This document shows, one piece after another, positions 23,169 to 34,369 of a stretch of DNA of 52,383 nucleotides. The number at the start of each line of letters is the position of its first letter. The first letter of the stretch is position 1. The stretch lies in NCBI RefSeq assembly GCF_009649175.1, contig NZ_WJPO01000028.1, forward strand, positions 1-52,383, in the 5' to 3' direction. Below the pieces are notes generated by a model that was not told where the DNA came from, did not search any database, and worked only from the letters and a program-made list of their open reading frames with translations. A program made the translations under genes and the position numbers. This stretch comes from Rhodovulum strictum (lineage in GTDB: Bacteria > Pseudomonadota > Alphaproteobacteria > Rhodobacterales > Rhodobacteraceae).

Positions 23169-24539
23169 TCAAACCGCCGCAGCCGCCGCGCTGTCGCCTG
23201 TCCGCGCCGACAGTTCCTCGGCCACGAGGAAGGCCAGTTCCAGCGCCTGAGACGCATTGAGCCGCGGATCGCAGGCGGTGTGATAGCGCGAGGACAGATC
23301 CTCGTCGGTCACGGCGCGCACGCCCCCGGTGCATTCGGTCACGTCCTTGCCGGTCATCTCGACATGCACCCCGCCCGGGATCGTGCCCTCGGCGGCATGG
23401 ACGGCAAAGAATTCCTGCACCTCGCGCAGCACCGAGTCGAAGGGCCGCGTCTTGTAGCCCGAGGCCGACTTGATGGTGTTGCCATGCATCGGATCGCAGG
23501 TCCAGACCACCTGCGCCCCCATCTCGCGCACCACGCGGATCAGCCGCGGCAGATGGTCGCCCACACTCCCCGCCCCGAACCGCGCGATCAGCGTCAACCG
23601 CCCGGCCACGTTCTTCGGGTTCAGCTTGTCGATCAGCACCTTCAGATCGTCATCGCTGATGCTCGGCCCGCATTTCAGCCCGACGGGGTTCATCACCCCA
23701 CGGCAGAACTCGACATGCGCGCCATCCACCTGCCGCGTGCGGTCGCCGATCCAGAGCATGTGCCCGGACCCCGCGATCCAGTTGCCCGACGTGGAATCGA
23801 CCCGGCACAAGGCCTCCTCGTATTCCAGCAGCAGCGCCTCGTGCGAGGTGAAGAAATCGACCGTCGACAGCCCGTTCATCGTGTCGCCGTTCACGCCCGC
23901 CGCGGTCATGAAGGCCAGCGTGTCCGAAATGCGGTTGGCCATGTCGCGGTATTTCTCGGCCTCGTCCCGGTCGGTAAAGCCCAGCGTCCAGGCATGAACC
24001 CGGTGAATATCGGCAAAGCCCCCCTTCGAGAAGGCGCGCAACAGGTTCAATGACGCCGCGGCCTGCGTATAGGCCTGCAACATGCGCGCCGGATCGGGGA
24101 TGCGCGCCTCTGGCGTGAACTCGAAACCGTTGATGATGTCGCCGCGATAGGCGGGCAGTTCGACCCCGCCCATGGTCTCGGTCGGCGCCGAGCGCGGCTT
24201 GGCGAACTGCCCCGCCATCCGGCCGACCTTGATCACTGGCAGCTTGGCGCCATAGGTCAGCACCACCGCCATCTGCAACAGCACCTTGAACGTGTCGCGG
24301 ATCGTGTCGGCCGAGAACTCCGAGAAGCTTTCGGCGCAATCGCCGCCCTGCAACAGGAACGCCTCGCCCCGCGCGGCCTGGCCCAACTTGGCGGTCAGGT
24401 TGCGCGCCTCGCCCGCAAAGACCAGCGGCGGATATTTGGCCAGCTGCGTCTCGACCGCATCGAGCGACGCCCGATCCTGATAGTCGGGCATCTGCACCCG
24501 GGGACGGGACCGCCAGTCGGATTTCTGCCAGGTCGTCAT
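23169..24539 (-). CDS. Class II 3-deoxy-7-phosphoheptulonate synthase (DAHP synthase)
   Basis: A 456-residue enzyme that condenses phosphoenolpyruvate and erythrose-4-phosphate, the first step of the shikimate pathway. Class II signatures include [12 protein letters not shown] (metal-binding Cys), [45 protein letters not shown] and [15 protein letters not shown]. The sequence matches the plant-like or AroA(II) type, not the E. coli AroF/G/H type. ATG 24539 begins [13 protein letters not shown] as in relatives. It is divergent from the GlxA-type regulator. Confidence 0.95.
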
Positions 24540-24682
24540 CTCATTCGCTCCGCAGGTCTTTCGCATTCCGTGGCGCTTATAGGGGCAAGCGCGCGCTGCC
24601 GCCACCATCAATTCCCCGCGCGCATACTTGATCCGTTCGGGCAAACCTGCTTTCGCTGGTCCGGCAGAGCGCGGAGGAGACG

Positions 24683-25693
24683 GTGACGGCAGGCACCCGG
24701 GACAGCGGCCTGATCAGGGGTACGGCGGAGGGAATGCGTCCGCAGGATCTCGTTTTCGTGCTGCTCGACCGCTTCACCATGATCAGCTTCGCCAGCGCCA
24801 TCGAACCCTTCCGCATCGCCAACCGCATGTCCGGCAGAACGCTCTACCGCTGGCGGCTGGCCGGCGAGGGCGGCGAATGGGCCACCTGTTCCAACGGCGC
24901 GCGGATCGCGCTCGACATGGATCTCGACGCGCTGGGGCGGGACGAAACCGTTCTGGTCTGCGGCGGCATCGACGTGCAGGCGGCAACCACCAAGCGGCTC
25001 GTCAGCTGGCTCAGGCGCGAGGCGCGCTCGGGCCGCATCATTGCCGGGCTCTGCACCGCGGCCCATGCGCTGGCGCGTGCGGGGCTGCTCGACGACCACC
25101 GCGCGACGATTCACTGGGAAAACCGGGACGGCTTCGCCGAGGATTTCCCCGAGATCGAGCTGACGAAATCCGTCTTCGTGATCGACGGCAACCGGATGAC
25201 CACGGCGGGCGGCACCGCGTCCATCGACCTCGCGCTGACCATGATCGCCGAGGCGCATGGCCCCGATCTGGCCAATGCCGTGGCCGATCAACTGATCTAT
25301 TCCTCGATCCGCACCGACCGGGACACCCAGCGGCTGTCGATCCCCACACGGATCGGCGTGCGCCACCCCAAGCTTTCCCAGGTCATCAACGCGATGGAGC
25401 GCAATCTCGAGGAGCCGATCTCGCCCGCGACGCTTGCCCAGGATGTGGGCATGAGCACGCGCCAGCTCGAACGGCTGTTCCGCCGTTATCTCGGCCGCAG
25501 TCCCAAACGCTATTACATGGAAATGCGGCTCGCCAAGGCGCGCAACCTGCTGCTGCAAACCGACATGAGCGTGATCAACGTTGCGCTCGCCTGCGGCTTC
25601 GCCTCGCCCAGCCATTTCTCGAAATGCTACCGCGCGCATTATGCCACCACCCCCTACCGCGAACGCGGCAGCCGGGGCGGCCCTGCGGATTGA
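24683..25693 (+). CDS. GlxA family AraC-type transcriptional regulator
   Basis: A 336-residue regulator. The N-terminal class-I glutamine-amidotransferase-like domain covers about residues 20-200 ([40 protein letters not shown]). The C-terminal AraC domain has two helix-turn-helix units; the second contains [20 protein letters not shown]. Members sense amine or quaternary-ammonium metabolites (for example GbdR and CdhR), but the effector cannot be assigned here. GTG 24683 is well placed after GGAGGAGAC. It is divergent from the DAHP synthase gene, and a dispersed Rhodobacteraceae-type motif follows it. Confidence 0.92.
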
Positions 25694-25915: not shown

Positions 25916-26467
25916 ATGCAGTGCCTGTTCTTCGATGTCCGCCCGAAACCGGGCCATATGGACGCCTATTTCGCCCATGTCGACCGGCTGCGGCCGATCC
26001 TCGCGCGCCATCGCGGGCTGATCTATCTCGAACGCTTCCGCCCGCTCGACGACCCGGAGGCGCTTCTTTCGCATCAGTTCTGGGCCGACGAGGCGGCGAT
26101 CACCGCCTGGCGGCGCGACATCGCGCACCGCGCCAGCCAATGGGCCGGGCAAAGGCTGCATTTCGAAAGCTACCGCATCCGCGTCGGCCCCCAGGCAGTC
26201 CATTCGCCCGAGGGCGCGGCGCGCTGGCTTGTCGCCGCCTATGGCCCCGCCCCGGCGGCAATCGGGCGCGGTTATGAAAGCGTCACCCGGCCGGGCCGCT
26301 TCGTCACGCTGGCAGAGGCGTCCGGGGGCGCGGCGGCGCAGGCGCTTGCCGAGGGCATGGCCCCGGGTGCCGACGAGATCCGCGTCTTCGCGATCACCCG
26401 CGACTACACGATGACCGACCGGGCCGAGGCGCCCGGCTATTGCCCGGTCTCGGGCAGAAGCCGGTAA
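25916..26467 (+). CDS. Antibiotic-biosynthesis-monooxygenase-fold (ABM-like) protein
   Basis: A 183-residue protein. MQCLFFDVRPKPGHMDAYFA and GLIYLERFRPLDDPEALLSH show the dimeric alpha-beta barrel pattern of ABM domain proteins. SHQFWADEAAITAWRRD is the usual following part. ATG 25916 is chosen because it begins at the first barrel strand; an in-frame ATG at 25853 adds a Pro-rich stretch. The C-terminal half, with YGPAPAAIGRGYESV and IRVFAITRDYTM, may be a second copy of the fold. Substrate unknown. Its end overlaps the convergent sugar dehydrogenase by 31 bases. Confidence 0.75.
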   Translation: MQCLFFDVRPKPGHMDAYFAHVDRLRPILARHRGLIYLERFRPLDDPEALLSHQFWADEAAITAWRRDIAHRASQWAGQRLHFESYRIRVGPQAVHSPEGAARWLVAAYGPAPAAIGRGYESVTRPGRFVTLAEASGGAAAQALAEGMAPGADEIRVFAITRDYTMTDRAEAPGYCPVSGRSR

Positions 26468-27573
26468 AGCGCCCCGTTCGTCACCGACAGGAACCAGATC
26501 GCGCCGTCGGGCCCTTCGCGCACATCGCGCAGCCGGCCGGTCTGGGGTGCTTCCAGCCGTTCCTCGGCGAACCCGGAATCGGGGTCGAGCCGCGACAGGA
26601 AACCGGAATTCAGGCTGCCCGAGAACAGATGCCCCCGCCATTGCGGCCAGAGCGCGCCGGAATAGATCGCCAGCCCCGAGGGCGCGATCGAGGGATCCCA
26701 GTAGTGCCGGGGCTGTTCCATCCCCGGCTTCGCCGTCCCCTCGCCGATCTTCAGCCCCGAATAATGCCGCCCGTAGGAAATCACCGGCCAGCCGAAATTG
26801 GCCCCCTTCTCGATCAGGTTCACCTCGTCGCCGCCCCGCGCGCCATGCTCGTTGATCCACAGCCGCCCCTCCAGATCCAGCGCCGCGCCCTGCGGGTTGC
26901 GGTGGCCATAGGACCAGATCTCGGGCCGCGCGCCCGGCTGCCCCGCAAACGGGTTGTCGCCGGGCACCGTGCCATCGCGGTTCAACCGCAGGACCGAACC
27001 CTCGTGGCGCCCCAGATCCTGCGCGCTGCGATCCTCGCCGCGGTCGCCGATGGTCAGGAACAGATGCCCTTCCGGCCCCTCGACAATGCGCGATCCGAAA
27101 TGCCGCCCGCCTCGCGCCCCGGGCGCCATCGCAAAGATCTCGCGAAACCCCTCCAGCCGCGTGCCGTCCTCCGACAGCCGCCCGACCCCCAGCGCCGTGC
27201 CCTCGCCCCGCCCCTGCGCCCGGGCATAGGACAGGAAGATCTCGCGGCTTTCGGCGAAATCGCGCGGCACCATCAGATCAAGCAGCCCGCCCTGCCCCAC
27301 GGCCGCCACATCCGGCAGACCCGCGACCTCGGCCACCTCACCCCCGGCGATCCGCACAAGTCGCCCGCCCCGCTCGGTCACCAGCACGCTGCCATCGGGC
27401 AGAAAGCCGATGGCCCAGGGCTCGGTCAGCCCGGTGGCGATTGTCTCGATGCGCAGCGTCCCGGCGGAACTTTCCAGCGCGCGGGCGGGATCGGGGGCAT
27501 GCGTGGCCAGCAGGCCGATGCCAAGGACAAGCGCGCCAAGGCGCCGGATCGGTCGGGAAACAGACTGTTGCAT
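26437..27573 (-). CDS. PQQ-dependent aldose sugar dehydrogenase (soluble glucose dehydrogenase/YliI-like), exported
   Basis: A 378-residue secreted six-bladed beta-propeller. The signal peptide contains LGALVLGIGLLATHAPDPAR. The GSDH family signatures are GLTEPWAIGFLPDGSVLVTE, GGRHFGSRIVEGPEGHLFLT, SYGHRNPQGAALDLEGRLW and EHGARGGDEVNLIEKGANFG followed by WP. Family enzymes oxidise sugars with PQQ in the periplasm, but PQQ use is not proven for all members. ATG 27573 is chosen because it places the signal peptide first. Tail-to-tail overlap of 31 bases with the ABM-like gene. Confidence 0.9.
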   Translation of the reverse strand: MQQSVSRPIRRLGALVLGIGLLATHAPDPARALESSAGTLRIETIATGLTEPWAIGFLPDGSVLVTERGGRLVRIAGGEVAEVAGLPDVAAVGQGGLLDLMVPRDFAESREIFLSYARAQGRGEGTALGVGRLSEDGTRLEGFREIFAMAPGARGGRHFGSRIVEGPEGHLFLTIGDRGEDRSAQDLGRHEGSVLRLNRDGTVPGDNPFAGQPGARPEIWSYGHRNPQGAALDLEGRLWINEHGARGGDEVNLIEKGANFGWPVISYGRHYSGLKIGEGTAKPGMEQPRHYWDPSIAPSGLAIYSGALWPQWRGHLFSGSLNSGFLSRLDPDSGFAEERLEAPQTGRLRDVREGPDGAIWFLSVTNGALYRLLPETGQ

Positions 27574-27696
27574 GTGCGGAAACCTAGGGCGCAGAGGCGC
27601 CATGCCAAGCCCGGATGCGGCGCGGTTTCCCTTCCCTTTTGATACGGGCGCCACTAGTCTGCCCCCCGGATTTCATTCCAACACGGGAGTTCAACA

Positions 27697-28881
27697 ATGA
27701 AAAAACTGCTTCTGGCCAGCGCGGCCACGCTGGCCCTTGCCGGGACGGCGTCGGCCGACGAGGTGAAGATCGGCATCATCTTCGGCTTCACCGGGCCGCT
27801 CGAATCGATCACCCCGGCCATGGCGGGCGGCGCGGAACTGGCGATTGCCGAGATCAATGCCGCCGGAACCTTCATGAACGGCGCGACCGTAACCCCGGTC
27901 CGCGGCGACTCGACCTGTGTGGACGCCGCCGCTGCCACCGCCACCGCCGAGCGTCTGGTGACCTCGGACAAGGTGCATGCCATCGTCGGGGCCGATTGTT
28001 CGGGTGTGTCGGGCGCGATCCTTCAGAACGTGGCGCGGCCCAACGGCATCGTGATGATCTCGCCCTCCTCGACCTCGCCCGCTCTGTCGAGCGCCGAGGA
28101 TGACGGGCTGTTCTTCCGCACCGCGCCCTCCGACGCGCGTCAGGGCGAGGTGATCGCCGAGGTGCTGAAGGAACGCGGCATGAACTCGGTCGCGATTTCC
28201 TATACCAACAACGATTACGGCAAGGGGCTGGCGGATTCGATCCAGGCCGCGTTCCAGGCTGCGGGCGGCACCGTGACCATCGTTGCCGCGCATGACGACG
28301 GCAAGTCCGACTATTCGGCCGAGGTTGCGGCGCTGGCCTCTGCGGGCGGCGACATGCTGGTGGTCGCGGGCTATGTCGACCAGGGCGGGCGCGGCATCAT
28401 CCAGGCCTCGATCGACACTGGCGCGTTCGAAACCTTCTTCCTGCCCGACGGGATGTATGGCGAGTCGCTGATCGCGGCGATCGGCCCCGAGCTGAACGGC
28501 TCGTTCGGCACCGTGCCCGGCACCGACAGCCCCGGCGCGGCGACGATCCAGGAAATGGCGGCCGCGGCAGGCTTCGACGGCACCTCGTCCTATGTGGCCG
28601 AAAGCTATGACGCGGCGGCGCTGATCCTTCTGGCGATGCATGCCGCAGGCTCGACCGCATCGGCCGATTTCAAGGACCGGATCATGGAGATTGCCAACGA
28701 ACCGGGCGAGAAGATCTATCCCGGCGAACTGGGCAAGGCGCTTGAGCTTCTCGCGGCGGGCGAGCAGATCGACTATGTCGGCGCGATCGATGTCGACCTG
28801 ATCGGGCCGGGCGAAAGCGCGGGCAATTTCCGCGAATACACGATCACCGACGGCGCGTTCGTCACCGACCGCTTCCGCTGA
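27697..28881 (+). CDS. ABC transporter substrate-binding protein (branched-chain amino acid/HAAT type)
   Basis: A 394-residue periplasmic binding protein of the LivK type. The signal peptide is MKKLLLASAATLALAGTASA. The mature protein begins DEVKIGIIFGFTGPLES, followed by family segments such as SDKVHAIVGADCSGVSGAIL, IVMISPSSTSPALSS and ISYTNNDYGKGLADS. Two cysteines (in DSTCVD and GADCSG) could form the usual disulfide. ATG 27697 lies behind AACACGGGAG. First gene of a seven-gene importer run. The ligand cannot be read from sequence; relatives bind leucine-type amino acids, amides or aromatic compounds. Confidence 0.92.
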   Translation: MKKLLLASAATLALAGTASADEVKIGIIFGFTGPLESITPAMAGGAELAIAEINAAGTFMNGATVTPVRGDSTCVDAAAATATAERLVTSDKVHAIVGADCSGVSGAILQNVARPNGIVMISPSSTSPALSSAEDDGLFFRTAPSDARQGEVIAEVLKERGMNSVAISYTNNDYGKGLADSIQAAFQAAGGTVTIVAAHDDGKSDYSAEVAALASAGGDMLVVAGYVDQGGRGIIQASIDTGAFETFFLPDGMYGESLIAAIGPELNGSFGTVPGTDSPGAATIQEMAAAAGFDGTSSYVAESYDAAALILLAMHAAGSTASADFKDRIMEIANEPGEKIYPGELGKALELLAAGEQIDYVGAIDVDLIGPGESAGNFREYTITDGAFVTDRFR

Positions 28882-28981: not shown

Positions 28982-29770
28982 GTGATCCGGGTAGAGAACC
29001 TGCACAAGCATTTCGGCGGCTTCCACGCGGTGGACGGCGCCTCGATCGAGATCGCCACAGGCTCGATCACCGGGTTGATCGGGCCGAATGGCGCGGGCAA
29101 GTCCACGCTGTTCAACGTGATCGCGGGCGTTCTGCCGCCTACCTCGGGCAAGGTCACGATGGCGGGCGAGGACATCACCGGGCTGAAGCCGCACGAGCTG
29201 TTCCACAAGGGGCTGCTGCGCACCTTTCAGATCGCGCATGAATTCAGCTCGATGACGGTGCGCGAGAACCTGATGATGGTGCCCGCGGGCCAGTCGGGCG
29301 AAACGATCTGGAACGCCTGGTTCGGGCGCGGCCGCGTGGCGGCCGAGGAACGCGCGCTGGCCGCGAAGGCCGACGAGGTGCTGGATTTCCTGACCATCGA
29401 CCACCTGGCCGACGAAAGGGCGGGCAACCTGTCGGGCGGGCAGAAGAAGCTGCTGGAACTTGGCCGCACGATGATGGTGGACGCCAAGGTGGTGTTCCTC
29501 GACGAGGTGGGCGCGGGCGTGAACCGCACGCTTCTGAACACGATCGGCGATGCCATCGTGCGGCTGAACAAGGAACGCGGCTACACCTTTTGCGTGATCG
29601 AGCATGACATGGATTTCATCGGCCGGCTTTGCGATCCGGTGATCGTGATGGCCGAGGGCAAGGTGCTGGCCAAGGGCAAGGCCGACGAGATCATGCAGAA
29701 CGAGGCGGTGATCGAGGCCTATCTGGGCACCGGGCTGAAGAACAAGCTGAAGGCGGAAGGCACGGCCTGA
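28982..29770 (+). CDS. ABC transporter ATP-binding protein (LivG-like)
   Basis: A 262-residue cytoplasmic ATPase. Walker A is GPNGAGKST at about residues 36-44, the signature is LSGGQKKLLELGR, Walker B is VVFLDEVGAGVN and the switch His is in FCVIEHDMDFI. In Walker B context the usual DEP is DEV. GTG 28982 begins VIRVENLHKHFGGF, typical of LivG, and is preceded by GGGGATGGGAAC. It should pair with the LivF-like ATPase at 29840. Confidence 0.93.
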   Translation: MIRVENLHKHFGGFHAVDGASIEIATGSITGLIGPNGAGKSTLFNVIAGVLPPTSGKVTMAGEDITGLKPHELFHKGLLRTFQIAHEFSSMTVRENLMMVPAGQSGETIWNAWFGRGRVAAEERALAAKADEVLDFLTIDHLADERAGNLSGGQKKLLELGRTMMVDAKVVFLDEVGAGVNRTLLNTIGDAIVRLNKERGYTFCVIEHDMDFIGRLCDPVIVMAEGKVLAKGKADEIMQNEAVIEAYLGTGLKNKLKAEGTA

Positions 29771-29839: not shown

Positions 29840-30550
29840 ATGGCTGAACCTTTCCTGATCGGCGACCGGATGATCGGCGGCTATGGCGGCGCGGATATCC
29901 TGCATGGCTGCACCGTGGCAGTCGAGAAGGGCGAGATCGCGGTGATCGTCGGCCCGAACGGCGCGGGCAAGTCGACCGCGATGAAGGCGGTGTTCGGGAT
30001 GCTGAACGTCCATTCGGGCGCGGTGCGGCTGAACGGCGAGGACATCACCCGCCTGACGCCGCAAGCCCGCGTGGCCAAGGGCATGGCCTTCGTACCGCAG
30101 ACCAGCAACATCTTCACCTCGATGAGTGTCGAGGAAAACCTGGAAATGGGCGCCTTCCTGCGCCGCGACGACATTTCGGGCACGATCGAGGAGGTCTATC
30201 ACCTTTTCCCGATCCTCAAGGAAAAGCGCCGCCAGGCCGCGGGCGAACTGTCGGGCGGCCAGCGCCAGCAGGTCGCGGTAGGCCGCGCGCTGATGACGAA
30301 ACCCTCGGTGCTGATGCTGGACGAGCCCACGGCGGGGGTTTCCCCGATCGTGATGGACGAATTGTTCGACCGGATCATCGAGGTGGCGCGCACCGGCATT
30401 TCCATCCTGATGGTCGAGCAGAATGCCCGCCAGGCGCTGGAGATCGCGGACAAGGGCTATGTGCTGGTGCAGGGGCGCAATGCCTATACCGATACCGGCA
30501 AGGCGCTTCTGGCCGACCCCGAGGTGCGCCGCACCTTTCTGGGGGGCTGA
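29840..30550 (+). CDS. ABC transporter ATP-binding protein (LivF-like)
   Basis: A 236-residue ATPase. Walker A is GPNGAGKST at residues 39-47, followed by the LivF Q-loop region GMAFVPQTSNIFTSMSVEEN. The signature is ELSGGQRQQVAVGRAL, Walker B is LMLDEPTAGVSP and the switch His position is Gln (LMVEQNARQAL), normal for LivF proteins. ATG 29840 begins MAEPFLIGDRMIGGYGGADI. It partners the LivG-like ATPase. Two bases separate its stop from the next gene, which encodes a small secreted protein and not a permease. Confidence 0.93.
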   Translation: MAEPFLIGDRMIGGYGGADILHGCTVAVEKGEIAVIVGPNGAGKSTAMKAVFGMLNVHSGAVRLNGEDITRLTPQARVAKGMAFVPQTSNIFTSMSVEENLEMGAFLRRDDISGTIEEVYHLFPILKEKRRQAAGELSGGQRQQVAVGRALMTKPSVLMLDEPTAGVSPIVMDELFDRIIEVARTGISILMVEQNARQALEIADKGYVLVQGRNAYTDTGKALLADPEVRRTFLGG

Positions 30551-30551
30551 G

Positions 30552-30974
30552 ATGGGAAATGCCCTTCTTGTCATGGCATTGGCGGCCGTTGCTGCGGTTC
30601 CGGCCCAAGCCGCGCCGCGGCTTCTGGACTGCGTGGCGGACCTTGCCTGCGTGACACGGCTGGACAGCGTCTGCGATGCGGTCGGGCTGGGCTATGCGAT
30701 GGAGCTGCCGCGCAAGGCCGGGGACAAGCTGATCCTGACCACCGCCGAGGGCGAGCGGTTCTTCGAGTTCCGCCGACTGGAGGATGCGCCGGGCGTGCTG
30801 GTGCAGGCGGCGGGCGGTGCGCTGGAGCCCGGACAGGGCGCAGGCGCCATGACGGTGTTCGACGATCTCAGCTTCGTTCTGACCCGGCACAGCCTGGTGC
30901 CGCTCGATGGTGCCGAGGCGCCGTCAACCGCGGTCGCGATCACGATCCATGGCCGCTGCGAGCCGCGCCAATGA
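30552..30974 (+). CDS. Small secreted four-cysteine protein inside the importer operon (paralogue 1)
   Basis: A 140-residue protein. MGNALLVMALAAVAAVPAQA is a clear signal peptide. The mature N-terminus has LLDCVADLACVTRLDSVC, three cysteines spaced C-x5-C-x7-C, and a fourth Cys is near the end (HGRCEPRQ). The body is beta-rich with LILTTAEGERFFEFRR and MTVFDDLSFVLTRH. ATG 30552 is one base after the LivF-like stop, so it must be cotranscribed. The following gene encodes a protein of the same layout. No known family recognised. A periplasmic accessory of the importer is inferred from position. Confidence 0.78.
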   Translation: MGNALLVMALAAVAAVPAQAAPRLLDCVADLACVTRLDSVCDAVGLGYAMELPRKAGDKLILTTAEGERFFEFRRLEDAPGVLVQAAGGALEPGQGAGAMTVFDDLSFVLTRHSLVPLDGAEAPSTAVAITIHGRCEPRQ

Positions 30975-31050
30975 ACCGCCCCCTCCGATCCGATGGCGGT
31001 TCGCCGATCAACGCCCGGCCCCGCCGGCCGGCCTGTCTGGGAGAACAGTC

Positions 31051-31452
31051 ATGCTGAACCGCCGCACCCTCGCGCTTGCGGCCCTGTTGTCGGTGCTGGG
31101 CCTGCCCCTGCCCCTTGCCGCGCAGGAGCCGAACGAGAACGATTTCGCGCTGGAGTGCCGTTTCGACCGGGAATGCCGCGAGGCAGAGCCCTGCACGGCG
31201 ACCGGCTTCACGCTGGCGGTGGATGGGCGCGGCGGCGGGATGGGCGCGGGCGTCAAGCTGGCGCGGGTCGTGCTGTATTCGGCCGCGGGCAAGGTCGACG
31301 CCTTCGGCACATTGGGCGGCGACACGCTGTTCCTTCAGGGGGGCAATGACGCCGTCCGGTCCTATCTGGTCGTCACCGATGGCGCCGCCCGCTATACCCT
31401 GCACATGGCCCAAGGGCCGCAAGTTGTCAGCTATCTCGGAACCTGCGAGTGA
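31051..31452 (+). CDS. Small secreted four-cysteine protein inside the importer operon (paralogue 2)
   Basis: A 133-residue protein. MLNRRTLALAALLSVLGLPL then PLAAQ is a signal peptide. The mature part opens FALECRFDRECREAEPC (C-x5-C-x5-C) and ends in SYLGTCE, so the four cysteines have the same arrangement as in the protein at 30552. Between them lies a beta-rich region with VDGRGGGMGAGV and YLVVTDGAARYTLHMA. ATG 31051 follows GGGAGAACAGTC. Its stop overlaps the permease start by one base (TGATG), which couples it to the transporter. Function unknown. Confidence 0.78.
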   Translation: MLNRRTLALAALLSVLGLPLPLAAQEPNENDFALECRFDRECREAEPCTATGFTLAVDGRGGGMGAGVKLARVVLYSAAGKVDAFGTLGGDTLFLQGGNDAVRSYLVVTDGAARYTLHMAQGPQVVSYLGTCE

Positions 31453-32462
31453 TGGATGTCCTGAACGCCCTTGTGGCCCTTGCCAATTTCGTGCTGATCC
31501 CCGCAACCGCCTATGGCGCGCAACTGGCGCTGGGCGCGCTGGGTGTGACGCTGATCTACGGGATCCTGCGCTTCTCGAACTTCGCGCATGGCGACACGAT
31601 GGCGTTCGGAACCATGGTGACGATCCTCGCGACATGGGGATTGCAATCCTACGGGATTTCGCTCTCGCCCTTGCCGACCGCGCTTCTGGCGCTGCCCGTG
31701 GGGATCGCGGTCACCGCCCTGCTGTTGTTGGGCACGGATCGGGTGGTCTATCGCTTCTATCGCGAGCAGAAGGCCAAGCCGGTGATCCTGGTCATCGTGT
31801 CGATGGGGGTGATGTTCATCCTCAACGGGCTGGTCCGCTTCATCATCGGCCCGGACGATCATCGCTTTGACGACGGGGTGCGTTTCCTGATCGACGCGCG
31901 CACGTTCCGCGAGATGACCGGGCTGGCCGAGGGGCTGGCGATCCGCACCTCGCAGGCCATCACCATCGTGACCGCGGTGGTGGTCGTTGCGCTGCTGTTC
32001 TGGTTTCTCAACCGCACGCGCACCGGCAAGTCGATGCGCGCCTTTTCCGACAACGAGGATCTGGCGCTGCTGTCGGGCATCAATCCCGAACGGGTCGTGG
32101 CGATCACCTGGATCATCGTGGCGGCGCTGGCGACCACGGCCGGCGTTCTGTACGGGCTGGACAAGTCGTTCAAGGCATTCACCTATTTCCAGTTGCTGCT
32201 GCCGATCTTTGCGGCGGCCATCGTGGGCGGGCTGGGCAATCCGCTGGGCGCCATTGCGGGCGGTTTCCTGATCGCGTTTTCCGAGGTGACGATCACCTAT
32301 GCCTGGAAGAAGGTGCTGACCTATCTGCTGCCTGACGGCATGGCGCCTGACGGGCTCGTGCAATTGCTGTCGACCGAATACAAGTTCGCGGTCAGCTTCG
32401 TGATCCTGGTGATCGTTCTGTTGTTCCGTCCGACGGGGATTTTCCGGGGGAAATCGGTATGA
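31452..32462 (+). CDS. ABC transporter permease (LivH-like)
   Basis: A 336-residue inner-membrane permease with about eight hydrophobic spans. Family features are LGVTLIYGILRFSNFAHGDT near the N-terminus (the usual G-x-NFAHG-type motif), the loop with NPERVVAITWIIVAALATTA and the C-terminal AAAIVGGLGNPLGAIAGGFL. ATG 31452 overlaps the preceding stop; an in-frame GTG directly before it at 31449 is the alternative. Its stop overlaps the next ATG (ATGA). Confidence 0.93.
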   Translation: MDVLNALVALANFVLIPATAYGAQLALGALGVTLIYGILRFSNFAHGDTMAFGTMVTILATWGLQSYGISLSPLPTALLALPVGIAVTALLLLGTDRVVYRFYREQKAKPVILVIVSMGVMFILNGLVRFIIGPDDHRFDDGVRFLIDARTFREMTGLAEGLAIRTSQAITIVTAVVVVALLFWFLNRTRTGKSMRAFSDNEDLALLSGINPERVVAITWIIVAALATTAGVLYGLDKSFKAFTYFQLLLPIFAAAIVGGLGNPLGAIAGGFLIAFSEVTITYAWKKVLTYLLPDGMAPDGLVQLLSTEYKFAVSFVILVIVLLFRPTGIFRGKSV

Positions 32463-33757
32463 AGCCCAGAGACATGGCCCTTTTCGCGCTGGTTGCCCTG
32501 CTGATCGTCGGCACCGGCTATCTGCAAAGCTGGAACGCGGCGCTGAACATCCTGAACATGGGGCTGATCTCGGCCATCATGGCGCTTGGGGTGAACATGC
32601 AATGGGGCTATGCGGGCCTGTTCAATGTCGGCGTCATGGGGTTCGTGGCGCTGGGCGGGCTGGGCGTGGTCCTTGTCTCGATGCCGCCGGTGGGGGCGGC
32701 CTGGTCCGCGGGCGGGATGCAGGTTCTGTTCGCCCTGGCCATCGGGCTGGGCGTGATCGTCGGTGCGATCCAGCTCTGGCGGCGGATGGCGCGGGGCGCG
32801 CTGCGCGGGGTGGCGCTGGTGGTCTGGCTGGTTGCGGGCTTCTTCGTCTTCCGCGCGGTCTTTGACCCTGCCGTGGCCGCGATCGAGGCGGTGAACCCGG
32901 CCGCCACGGGCTATCTGGGCGGGCTGGGGCTGCCGGTGCTGTTCGGCTGGCCGGTGGGCGCGCTGCTGGCCGCGGGCGCGGCCTGGGTGATCGGCAAGAC
33001 CGCGCTGGGGCTGCGCTCGGACTATCTGGCGATTGCGACGCTGGGCATCGCCGAGATCGTGATCGCGGTCCTGAAGAACGAGGAATGGCTGACCCGCGGC
33101 GTCAAGAACGTCATCGGCATCCCCCGCCCCGTCCCCTATGAGGTCGAGTTGCAGGCCGATCCGGGCTTTGTCGAACGGGCTGCGGGCCTGGGTCTTGATC
33201 CGGTCACCGCCTCGACGCTTTATGTCAAACTGCTTTACGCAGGGCTGTTCGCGGCGGTGCTGATCGCGCTGATCTGGCTCAGCCAGATGGCGCTGCGGTC
33301 GCCCTGGGGACGGATGATGCGCGCGATCCGCGACAACGAGGTGGCGGCCGAGGCGATGGGCAAGGATGTCAAGGCGCGGCATCTGCAAATCTTCATCCTC
33401 GGCTCGGCGGTCTGCGGGCTTGCGGGCGCCATGATGATCACGCTCGACAGTCAGTTGACGCCCGCCAGTTATCAGCCGCTGCGCTTCACCTTCCTTGTGT
33501 GGGTGATGGTGATCGTCGGTGGTTCGGGCAACAATTTCGGTGCGGTTCTGGGCGGCTTCCTGATCTGGTTCCTGTGGGTGCAGGTCGAACCCTTTGGTGC
33601 CTTCCTGATGGAGGTGATGACCAGCGGCATGGCCGCCGACTCGGCCCTGCGGGCGCATCTGATGGACAGCGTGGCGCATATGCGGCTGCTGACCATGGGG
33701 GTGATCCTGCTTCTGGTGCTGCGCTTCAGCCCGCGCGGGCTGATCCCCGAACGCTGA
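32459..33757 (+). CDS. ABC transporter permease (LivM-like)
   Basis: A 432-residue inner-membrane permease. The N-terminal LNILNMGLISAIMALGVNMQ and WGYAGLFNVGVMGFVALGG match LivM. A conserved loop reads GLRSDYLAIATLGIAEIVI, and MRAIRDNEVAAEAMGKDV is the cytoplasmic EAA-like coupling loop. It is longer than E. coli LivM by having an extra hydrophobic region at about 75-165. ATG 32459 overlaps the LivH-like stop. It pairs with that permease to form the channel. Confidence 0.93.
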   Translation: MKPRDMALFALVALLIVGTGYLQSWNAALNILNMGLISAIMALGVNMQWGYAGLFNVGVMGFVALGGLGVVLVSMPPVGAAWSAGGMQVLFALAIGLGVIVGAIQLWRRMARGALRGVALVVWLVAGFFVFRAVFDPAVAAIEAVNPAATGYLGGLGLPVLFGWPVGALLAAGAAWVIGKTALGLRSDYLAIATLGIAEIVIAVLKNEEWLTRGVKNVIGIPRPVPYEVELQADPGFVERAAGLGLDPVTASTLYVKLLYAGLFAAVLIALIWLSQMALRSPWGRMMRAIRDNEVAAEAMGKDVKARHLQIFILGSAVCGLAGAMMITLDSQLTPASYQPLRFTFLVWVMVIVGGSGNNFGAVLGGFLIWFLWVQVEPFGAFLMEVMTSGMAADSALRAHLMDSVAHMRLLTMGVILLLVLRFSPRGLIPER

Positions 33758-33772: not shown

Positions 33773-34369
33773 TTGGCAGAGCTGCTGATCCTGCTGCCGG
33801 CCGCGGGCGCCTCGGCCCGGATGCGCGGGCGCGACAAGCTGCTGGAACCGGTCGATGGCGTGGCGCTGTTGCGCCGTCAGGCGATGGCCGCGCTGGCCAC
33901 CGGGGCGCCGGTTCTGGTGACGCTGCCCAGGGGCGCGGGCACGGCGCGCGCATCGGCGCTGGCGGGGCTGGCCGCCCGCATCGCATGGATCGACGCTGCC
34001 GAGGGGATGGCGGCCTCGCTCCGCGCGGGGGCGGCGGCGGCGCAGGCGGCGGGCGCGTCCGGGCTGATGGTGATGCTGCCCGACATGCCAGAGATCACGA
34101 CCGAGGATCTGGCCATGCTGCGCGCGGCATTTCACGCAGCCCCGGATCATGCGCTGCGCGCCTGCACGTCGGGCGGCGCGGCGGGCCATCCGGTGATCTT
34201 CCCGTCCCGGCTGTTCGCCATGCTGGCCCGGGTGCAGGGCGATGCGGGCGGGCGGGCGGTGCTTGCAGGCGAAGCCGTTCAGCTTCTGCCCCTGAGCGGC
34301 GAGCGCGCGCTGACCGATCTGGACACGCCCGAGGACTGGGCCGACTGGCGTGCCCGGACAGGGCGCTGA
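33773..34369 (+). CDS. MobA/MocA-like nucleotidyltransferase
   Basis: A 198-residue protein. LLILLPAAGASARMRGRDKL is the nucleotide-binding motif of the MobA-like NTP transferase family (L-A-A-G-x-S-x-R-M-x-x-x-K-L). LMVMLPDMPEITTEDLAML contains the metal-binding Asp, and SGGAAGHPVIFP is the usual third motif. Such enzymes put CMP or GMP on the molybdenum cofactor, or transfer nucleotides to other small molecules. TTG 33773 follows GGGGGCGGG. It lies 15 bases after the LivM-like gene and is probably in its transcript, though the functional link is unclear. No xanthine dehydrogenase or other molybdoenzyme gene is near. Confidence 0.83.
   Translation: MAELLILLPAAGASARMRGRDKLLEPVDGVALLRRQAMAALATGAPVLVTLPRGAGTARASALAGLAARIAWIDAAEGMAASLRAGAAAAQAAGASGLMVMLPDMPEITTEDLAMLRAAFHAAPDHALRACTSGGAAGHPVIFPSRLFAMLARVQGDAGGRAVLAGEAVQLLPLSGERALTDLDTPEDWADWRARTGR

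Follow-up and report, generated by a model that had tools for sequence, protein, structure and literature searches.

HAAT importers are usually treated as five-gene units. In a stretch of 52,383 nucleotides of the Rhodovulum strictum genome (contig NZ_WJPO01000028.1; hereafter the window), the LivF-like and LivH-like genes of such an importer are separated by two small genes, gene 1 and gene 2, encoding putatively secreted proteins with four cysteine residues each. This raises the question whether these proteins are part of the transporter or are encoded in its operon without being part of it, two categories that are usually merged in operon-context annotation.

The two small genes are packed closely against their neighbors (Table 1). 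A single base separates the LivF-like stop codon (30548-30550) from gene 1, the spacing between gene 1 and gene 2 is 76 bases, and LivH starts either with GTG at 31449 or with ATG at 31452, both of which overlap the stop of gene 2. The fourth cysteine is located near the C-terminus of the gene 1 product and is the penultimate residue of the gene 2 product. Both N-termini, read by eye, contain a hydrophobic segment with a small-x-small motif at its end, and both proteins are probably secreted. The location of the pair between the LivF-like and LivH-like genes, the one-base gap, and the stop/start overlap had been described in the original prediction and were reproduced, as were the cysteine spacings of both proteins and their single C-terminal cysteine.

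Table 1. Positions of the small genes, the host operon, and neighboring genes in the window
Feature	Position	Strand	Remarks
Class II DAHP synthase, locus marker	23169..24608	-	Pfam DAHP_synth_2 6e-207; open frame, start approximate
AraC/GlxA-type regulator (DJ-1/PfpI + HTH)	24683..25693	+	GbdR-like, under the cut-off of that model
Glucose/sorbosone-dehydrogenase-type protein	26437-27654	-	Pfam GSDH; between AraC-type regulator and importer
HAAT-type substrate-binding protein	27697..28881	+	Pfam Peripla_BP_6 6e-42
LivG-like ATPase	28982..29770	+	Pfam / NCBIfam matches
LivF-like ATPase	29840..30550	+	Pfam / NCBIfam matches
Gene 1	30552..30974	+	putative secreted four-cysteine protein, 140 aa, C-x5-C-x7-C ... 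C; ATG at 30552, stop ends at 30974
Gene 2	31051..31452	+	putative secreted four-cysteine protein, 133 aa, C-x5-C-x5-C ... C; predicted eight-stranded beta-barrel; ATG at 31051, stop ends at 31452
LivH-like permease	31449..32462	+	Pfam / NCBIfam matches
LivM-like permease	32459..33757	+	Pfam / NCBIfam matches
MobA/MocA-like nucleotidyltransferase	33773-34369		about 15 bases downstream of LivM

According to Pfam, the host operon encodes a complete HAAT set (Peripla_BP_6, ABC_tran, BCA_ABC_TP_C, and BPD_transp_2), and sequence comparison gave leucine- and Leu/Ile/Val-binding proteins as the nearest solved structures of its binding protein. NCBIfam Liv/Urt models match the operon below their curated cut-offs, and the importer substrate is therefore not assigned. 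Within the family, 224 of 248 genomes (one genome per genus) contain a LivH match at E up to 1e-100. The order DAHP synthase - AraC/GlxA-type regulator - HAAT also recurs: among 20 compared loci, some of which are too short to cover all neighbors, the DAHP synthase was found in 13 and the regulator in 11, and the annotation of Paracoccus ferrooxidans has this order, too. Control of the small genes by the AraC-type regulator appears plausible. The GSDH-type gene has a homolog in seven of the 20 loci; a homolog of the MobA/MocA-like gene is present in three and lies behind LivM in one of them (L166).

The pair had been predicted to be paralogous, a relationship that is invisible to BLASTP. Pairwise alignment of gene 1 with gene 2 gave E = 0.19, which was too weak for a test of paralogy, and profiles were used instead. 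A profile of gene 2 relatives (A1; 41 rows, gene 1 absent) detected gene 1 in the window's own genome with E = 4.2e-6 over positions 5-119 of 120. When all 104 candidates of this genome were scored with the joint profile A3, E-values up to 1e-3 were reached by genes 1 and 2 only. The profile-profile check proposed in the original prediction was carried out by aligning 15 gene 1 sequences from the genus (the window's counted; 13 after filtering) with 75 gene-2-type sequences using hhalign, which gave a probability of 95.8 and a score of 48.4 over the full length; an earlier comparison with two gene 1 sequences only had given a probability of 61. In a control with 100 shuffles of the non-cysteine columns, with the cysteines kept fixed, the maximum score was 19.2. 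As judged from sequence, the A1 profile match and the hhalign score above all shuffles identify the pair as distant paralogs of one family.

Profile members were found in 15 of the 16 genomes of the window's genus, its own genome counted, with the gene 1 type in 15 and the gene 2 type in eight of them, all between LivF and LivH. One genome of this genus (G251) has the importer with LivF adjoining LivH and gave no family match. Gene 1 and gene 2 behave as real genes, with same-genus orthologs at the same place and dN/dS values below 1. Values below 1 were obtained for both genes in 28 of 28 pairs from eight genomes of the genus, with a maximum of 0.76. In the pair G000-G259, the dN/dS values were 0.036 (LivF), 0.256 (gene 1), 0.552 (gene 2), and 0.083 (LivH). 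The small genes are constrained, yet evolve far faster than the transporter. All four cysteines are invariant in the 75 aligned gene-2-type members, 69 of which also have the 5/5 cysteine spacing.

Searches of Pfam, NCBIfam, and PHROGs gave no convincing match to the family; the best one was a lone match to fumarase C (E = 0.0037, one of 75 members). Sequence and profile searches against the PDB returned nothing usable (best E-values of 0.08-0.86, or no match), and a description of the family was not found in the open-licence literature, subscription journals being outside the scope of the search. At the level of sequence, the gene pair belongs to a protein family that is absent from the libraries searched. 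The AlphaFold2 model of gene 2 (pLDDT 89.5), which superseded a secondary-structure guess from residue propensities, has eight consecutive strands forming a beta-barrel, with Cys36 and Cys132 located in strands 1 and 8, respectively. A predicted disulfide bond between these two residues would close the barrel, and a second one between Cys42 and Cys48 would brace loop 1. Gene 1 probably encodes a barrel as well, given its homology to gene 2. Foldseek and VIA-align searches with the gene 2 model returned generic barrels only among the 50 matches listed for each.

Members of the A1 profile are present in at least 66 of 248 family genomes (one per genus), at least 55 of 196 order-level genomes, the listed ones all belonging to the same family, and at least one of 289 class-level genomes, which is the window's own; these tallies are lower bounds from at most 18, 22, and 15 scored candidates per genome, respectively. 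The small-protein family was found here only in Rhodobacteraceae, with family membership assigned by record titles. Carriers by record title include Lentibacter, Marimonas, Aliiroseovarius, Actibacterium, Litoreibacter, Roseivivax, Loktanella, Sagittula, Thioclava, and Tropicibacter. One carrier record titled Flavobacteriia and marked 'unverified' has the same contig number, length, and range as a Roseobacter record and is taken as mislabelled. No match was obtained by tblastn with gene 2 in a phage collection or with the relatives L014 and L027 in a plasmid collection.

The original prediction had also asked whether the genes recur at this place in other Rhodobacteraceae, which is the case. 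Among 86 profile members (matches at E up to 1e-3, a few of them partial or with two cysteines) at 40 loci, 82 are located between LivF and LivH, two between LivH and LivM, and two at an importer-less locus; the loci represent 40 of the 43 newly hit order-level genomes, with G393, G400, and G406 left out. A single LivF-LivH gap contains up to six copies (L234, L246). The pair in the window exemplifies an array that recurs with one to six genes. The notion of two paralogs thus holds with respect to their relatedness and is too narrow with respect to their number, since copy number ranges from 0 to 6. With gene starts picked by rule and LivH taken from its aligned start, the first small gene begins -4 to +8 bases from the LivF stop in 39 of 54 arrays, and LivH overlaps by exactly 4 bases in 24 of 54. 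These tight overlaps suggest a tie to transporter synthesis.

Many orthologous operons do not contain such genes, and LivF adjoins LivH in those read in Paracoccus ferrooxidans, P. denitrificans, and Rhizobium etli. Across 79 readable LivF-LivH intervals, no four-cysteine gene was found in 52, one in 18, two in seven, and four in two. This set is a non-random one, as its 80 regions were picked manually, from the top, among the best LivH matches listed with coordinates; one region (L089, without LivF) was dropped. It omits some listed LivH matches and the genomes already fetched through small-gene matches; because genomes chosen for their small genes are left out, 27 of 79 underestimates the prevalence. 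Among the 52 intervals without a four-cysteine gene, the gap is at most 10 bases long in 34 and 11-160 bases long in 10. Small membrane genes occupy another two (252 and 274 bases), and the remaining six, with gaps of 365-1403 bases, contain secreted genes whose cysteine layouts differ from that of the family and some of which are perhaps distant relatives. A LivF gene tree was rejected as a basis for counting gains and losses; it is uninformative because it required 24 changes vs a shuffled mean of 23.2 and only 11 of its 77 inner branches were well supported.

Several loci show further variations of this arrangement. Secreted proteins with other cysteine layouts are encoded in the LivF-LivH gap of L031, L052, L055, L068, L109, and L118, and several of them have just one cysteine near the mature N-terminus and one at the C-terminus, possibly representing a barrel without the loop-1 cysteines. 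The small predicted membrane proteins in the same gap of L078 and L097 have no apparent relation to the family. Members are also encoded between LivG and LivF (L164:7628-8032, minus strand; L171:3361-3822, plus strand; genomes G007 and G186), so that insertions are not restricted to the LivF-LivH gap. Both genomes with a member between LivH and LivM (L232:5126-5560 and L253:4867-5301) have four more between LivF and LivH. In G221 (L169:5611-8082), LivF is followed by two small secreted genes without LivH, the ortholog of which is on another contig, and a further secreted gene is located between LivG and LivF.

Family members are also found away from the importer. In the genus g146, 18 of 19 genomes, among them 11 of the 11 of high quality, have the first small gene directly behind the ortholog of the window's AraC/GlxA-type regulator, with 31-77 bases between the regulator and the aligned small-gene start, and a second small gene is also present in eight of these 18. 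Two of the 18 copies are incomplete (L286 ends early, L290 is at a contig end), and at least four cysteines are present in each of the other 16. According to profile scores, the second gene is a clear member (E = 2e-7) and the first one a weak member (E = 3e-4) with the four-cysteine layout kept. In nine hand-picked pairs, dN/dS was 0.09-0.25 where dS was computable, with the first gene saturated in four pairs and dS > 1 in several others. With all candidates scored, a LivH ortholog was not found in any of the 19 genomes; 18 of them have a 41-44% LivH paralog, and one genome, which is 61% complete, gave no match. Loss of the importer would be the simpler explanation for this genus and others without it, because 224 of 248 genera have the importer. 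The N-termini of the g146 proteins, read by eye, look like uncleaved membrane anchors, and because of this apparent anchoring the copies may have been re-used. The proteins could also serve the 41-44% LivH paralog.

The one-contig genome G123 has three small genes directly behind the regulator at the same locus. Importer genes were not found in the 16 kb read there, and the best LivH match in the genome was 42%. In G084, the LivF-LivH gap is empty (L056), and a member pair is located directly behind the DctP, DctQ, and DctM genes of a TRAP importer. According to the original prediction, occurrence of the genes apart from ABC importers would refute it, and such occurrence was observed in a minority of genomes, namely in g146, G123, and G084. 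In addition, a relative without the second and third cysteine is encoded in G104 (L167:6551-7054) close to genes for a phage-type integrase and a resolvase, which suggests possible mobility of family genes.

Slightly better than even chances are given to the explanation that the small genes encode fast-evolving secreted beta-barrel binding modules, which are hosted and expressed by the AraC-HAAT locus and are not obligatory transporter parts. Each family protein would form a closed beta-barrel of eight strands, the first and last of which contain cysteines, and its acidic first loop would be braced by cysteines. The proteins would be made from the AraC-HAAT locus, usually being translated together with the importer, and would act in the envelope as independent binding modules, the exposed loops of which may bind a ligand or a protein. 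By analogy, the likeliest activity would be the binding or inhibition of a periplasmic protein or a small ligand in the manner of MliC and ACP, and the paralogs would differ in target. The constant features are the predicted secretion or anchoring, the cysteine-held barrel, and the expression from the regulator-importer locus. An obligatory role in the transporter is unlikely because many importer operons are devoid of the genes, which in turn persist in genomes with no importer found.

A periplasmic accessory role, as originally predicted, would mean that the proteins are subunits that pre-bind or hand over substrate or tune the docking of the binding protein, with copies following the substrate range. 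This is considered rather unlikely, albeit conceivable. The part of the prediction that is supported is that the genes form one family in the same gap with tight spacing. Near-confinement to the importer operon, with 82 of 86 members in the LivF-LivH gap and two of 86 between LivH and LivM, and the stop/start overlaps in the arrays support an accessory role and speak against independent modules, and it is further supported by the pair behind a second binding-protein-dependent importer, the TRAP operon of G084, and by the precedent of AztABCD, in which AztD is described as handing zinc to AztC (PMC7463823, PMC6689063, PMC7731109). However, the genes occur neither only nor consistently with the importer: 52 of 79 intervals of the same conserved importer are without a four-cysteine gene, the genes are retained in g146 and G123, where a LivH ortholog was not found, and in G251 the importer is present without any family match, LivF directly adjoining LivH. 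In species having both the genes and the importer, an accessory role is possible by analogy. The g146 case itself may count for less against such a role, as its copies were possibly re-used, its first gene is a weak member, and some of its dN/dS values are saturated.

The proteins could also be lysozyme or protease inhibitors, either MliC/PliC/ACP-like or metalloprotease-inhibitor-like, which shield the envelope from predators, competitors, or hosts. Target diversification would fit fast-evolving, multi-copy secreted proteins, and the predicted eight-stranded barrel, in which strands 1 and 8 contain cysteines, has the layout described for MliC/PliC/ACP (PMC5507604), a layout from which alone an inhibitor role is taken as a lead. 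In contrast, the MliC motifs SxSGAxY and YxxxTKG, as given there, were found in one and none of 118 members, respectively, no MliC model was among the Pfam matches of 52 and 75 members (overlapping sets) at a threshold of E = 0.1, and there was no convincing match to other Pfam models. An MliC chain was not among the 50 matches listed by Foldseek or VIA-align, which does not imply exclusion, and a fold relation was not confirmed by these searches. No gene-wide dN/dS > 1 was obtained in the pairs computed. A function as inhibitors in this specific sense is regarded as quite unlikely. A similarly improbable variant would be lineage-specific sets of Rhodobacteraceae-specific, tandemly expanding secreted beta-barrel binders with the regulator-importer locus as expression site, acting in the envelope as inhibitors or decoys that counter enzymes from competitors, predators, or phages; in such sets, the barrel scaffold would be held by the cysteines while the loops diverge, so that each lineage would have its own set of binders. 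Finally, the genes might be passengers without a selected role that collect in a permissive gap of a highly expressed operon. The copy number of 0 to 6 and the apparently unrelated small predicted membrane genes sharing the gap in L078 and L097 fit this idea, but dN/dS is below 1 in both genera tested, the cysteines are invariant in 75 of 75 members, and the genes are retained in 18 of 19 g146 genomes, making it highly improbable.

A conserved importer of a type regarded as a five-gene unit here hosts a putatively secreted protein family with up to six copies. The guests without their host in one genus keep 'encoded in the transporter operon' apart from 'part of the transporter', and they provide a natural test in culturable bacteria. 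A new protein family is thereby defined, and its gene 2 branch is given a predicted fold of high confidence.

Among known systems, MliC/PliC and the Neisseria ACP are described as eight-stranded barrels whose first and last strands contain cysteines, and ACP is reported to inhibit lysozyme with <20% sequence similarity and without the MliC motifs (PMC5507604). The family described here would share with them the small secreted eight-stranded barrel, in this case a predicted one, and the cysteines in the first and last strands, and differs in having two extra cysteines near loop 1. AztD is, according to the reports cited above, an extra periplasmic protein encoded with the zinc importer AztABC. 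Both AztD and the present family are extra periplasmic proteins, putatively so in the latter case, which are encoded with a binding-protein-dependent ABC importer. Unlike AztD, the present family consists of small, four-cysteine, multi-copy proteins, which are absent from 52 of 79 orthologous intervals and present without this importer. Compared with the HAAT/Liv operon, the homologs of the binding protein, LivG, LivF, LivH, and LivM are the same and are encoded in the same order. The operon described here differs in that part of the genomes have one to six additional genes for putatively secreted proteins in the LivF-LivH gap, and also by the two profile members between LivH and LivM.
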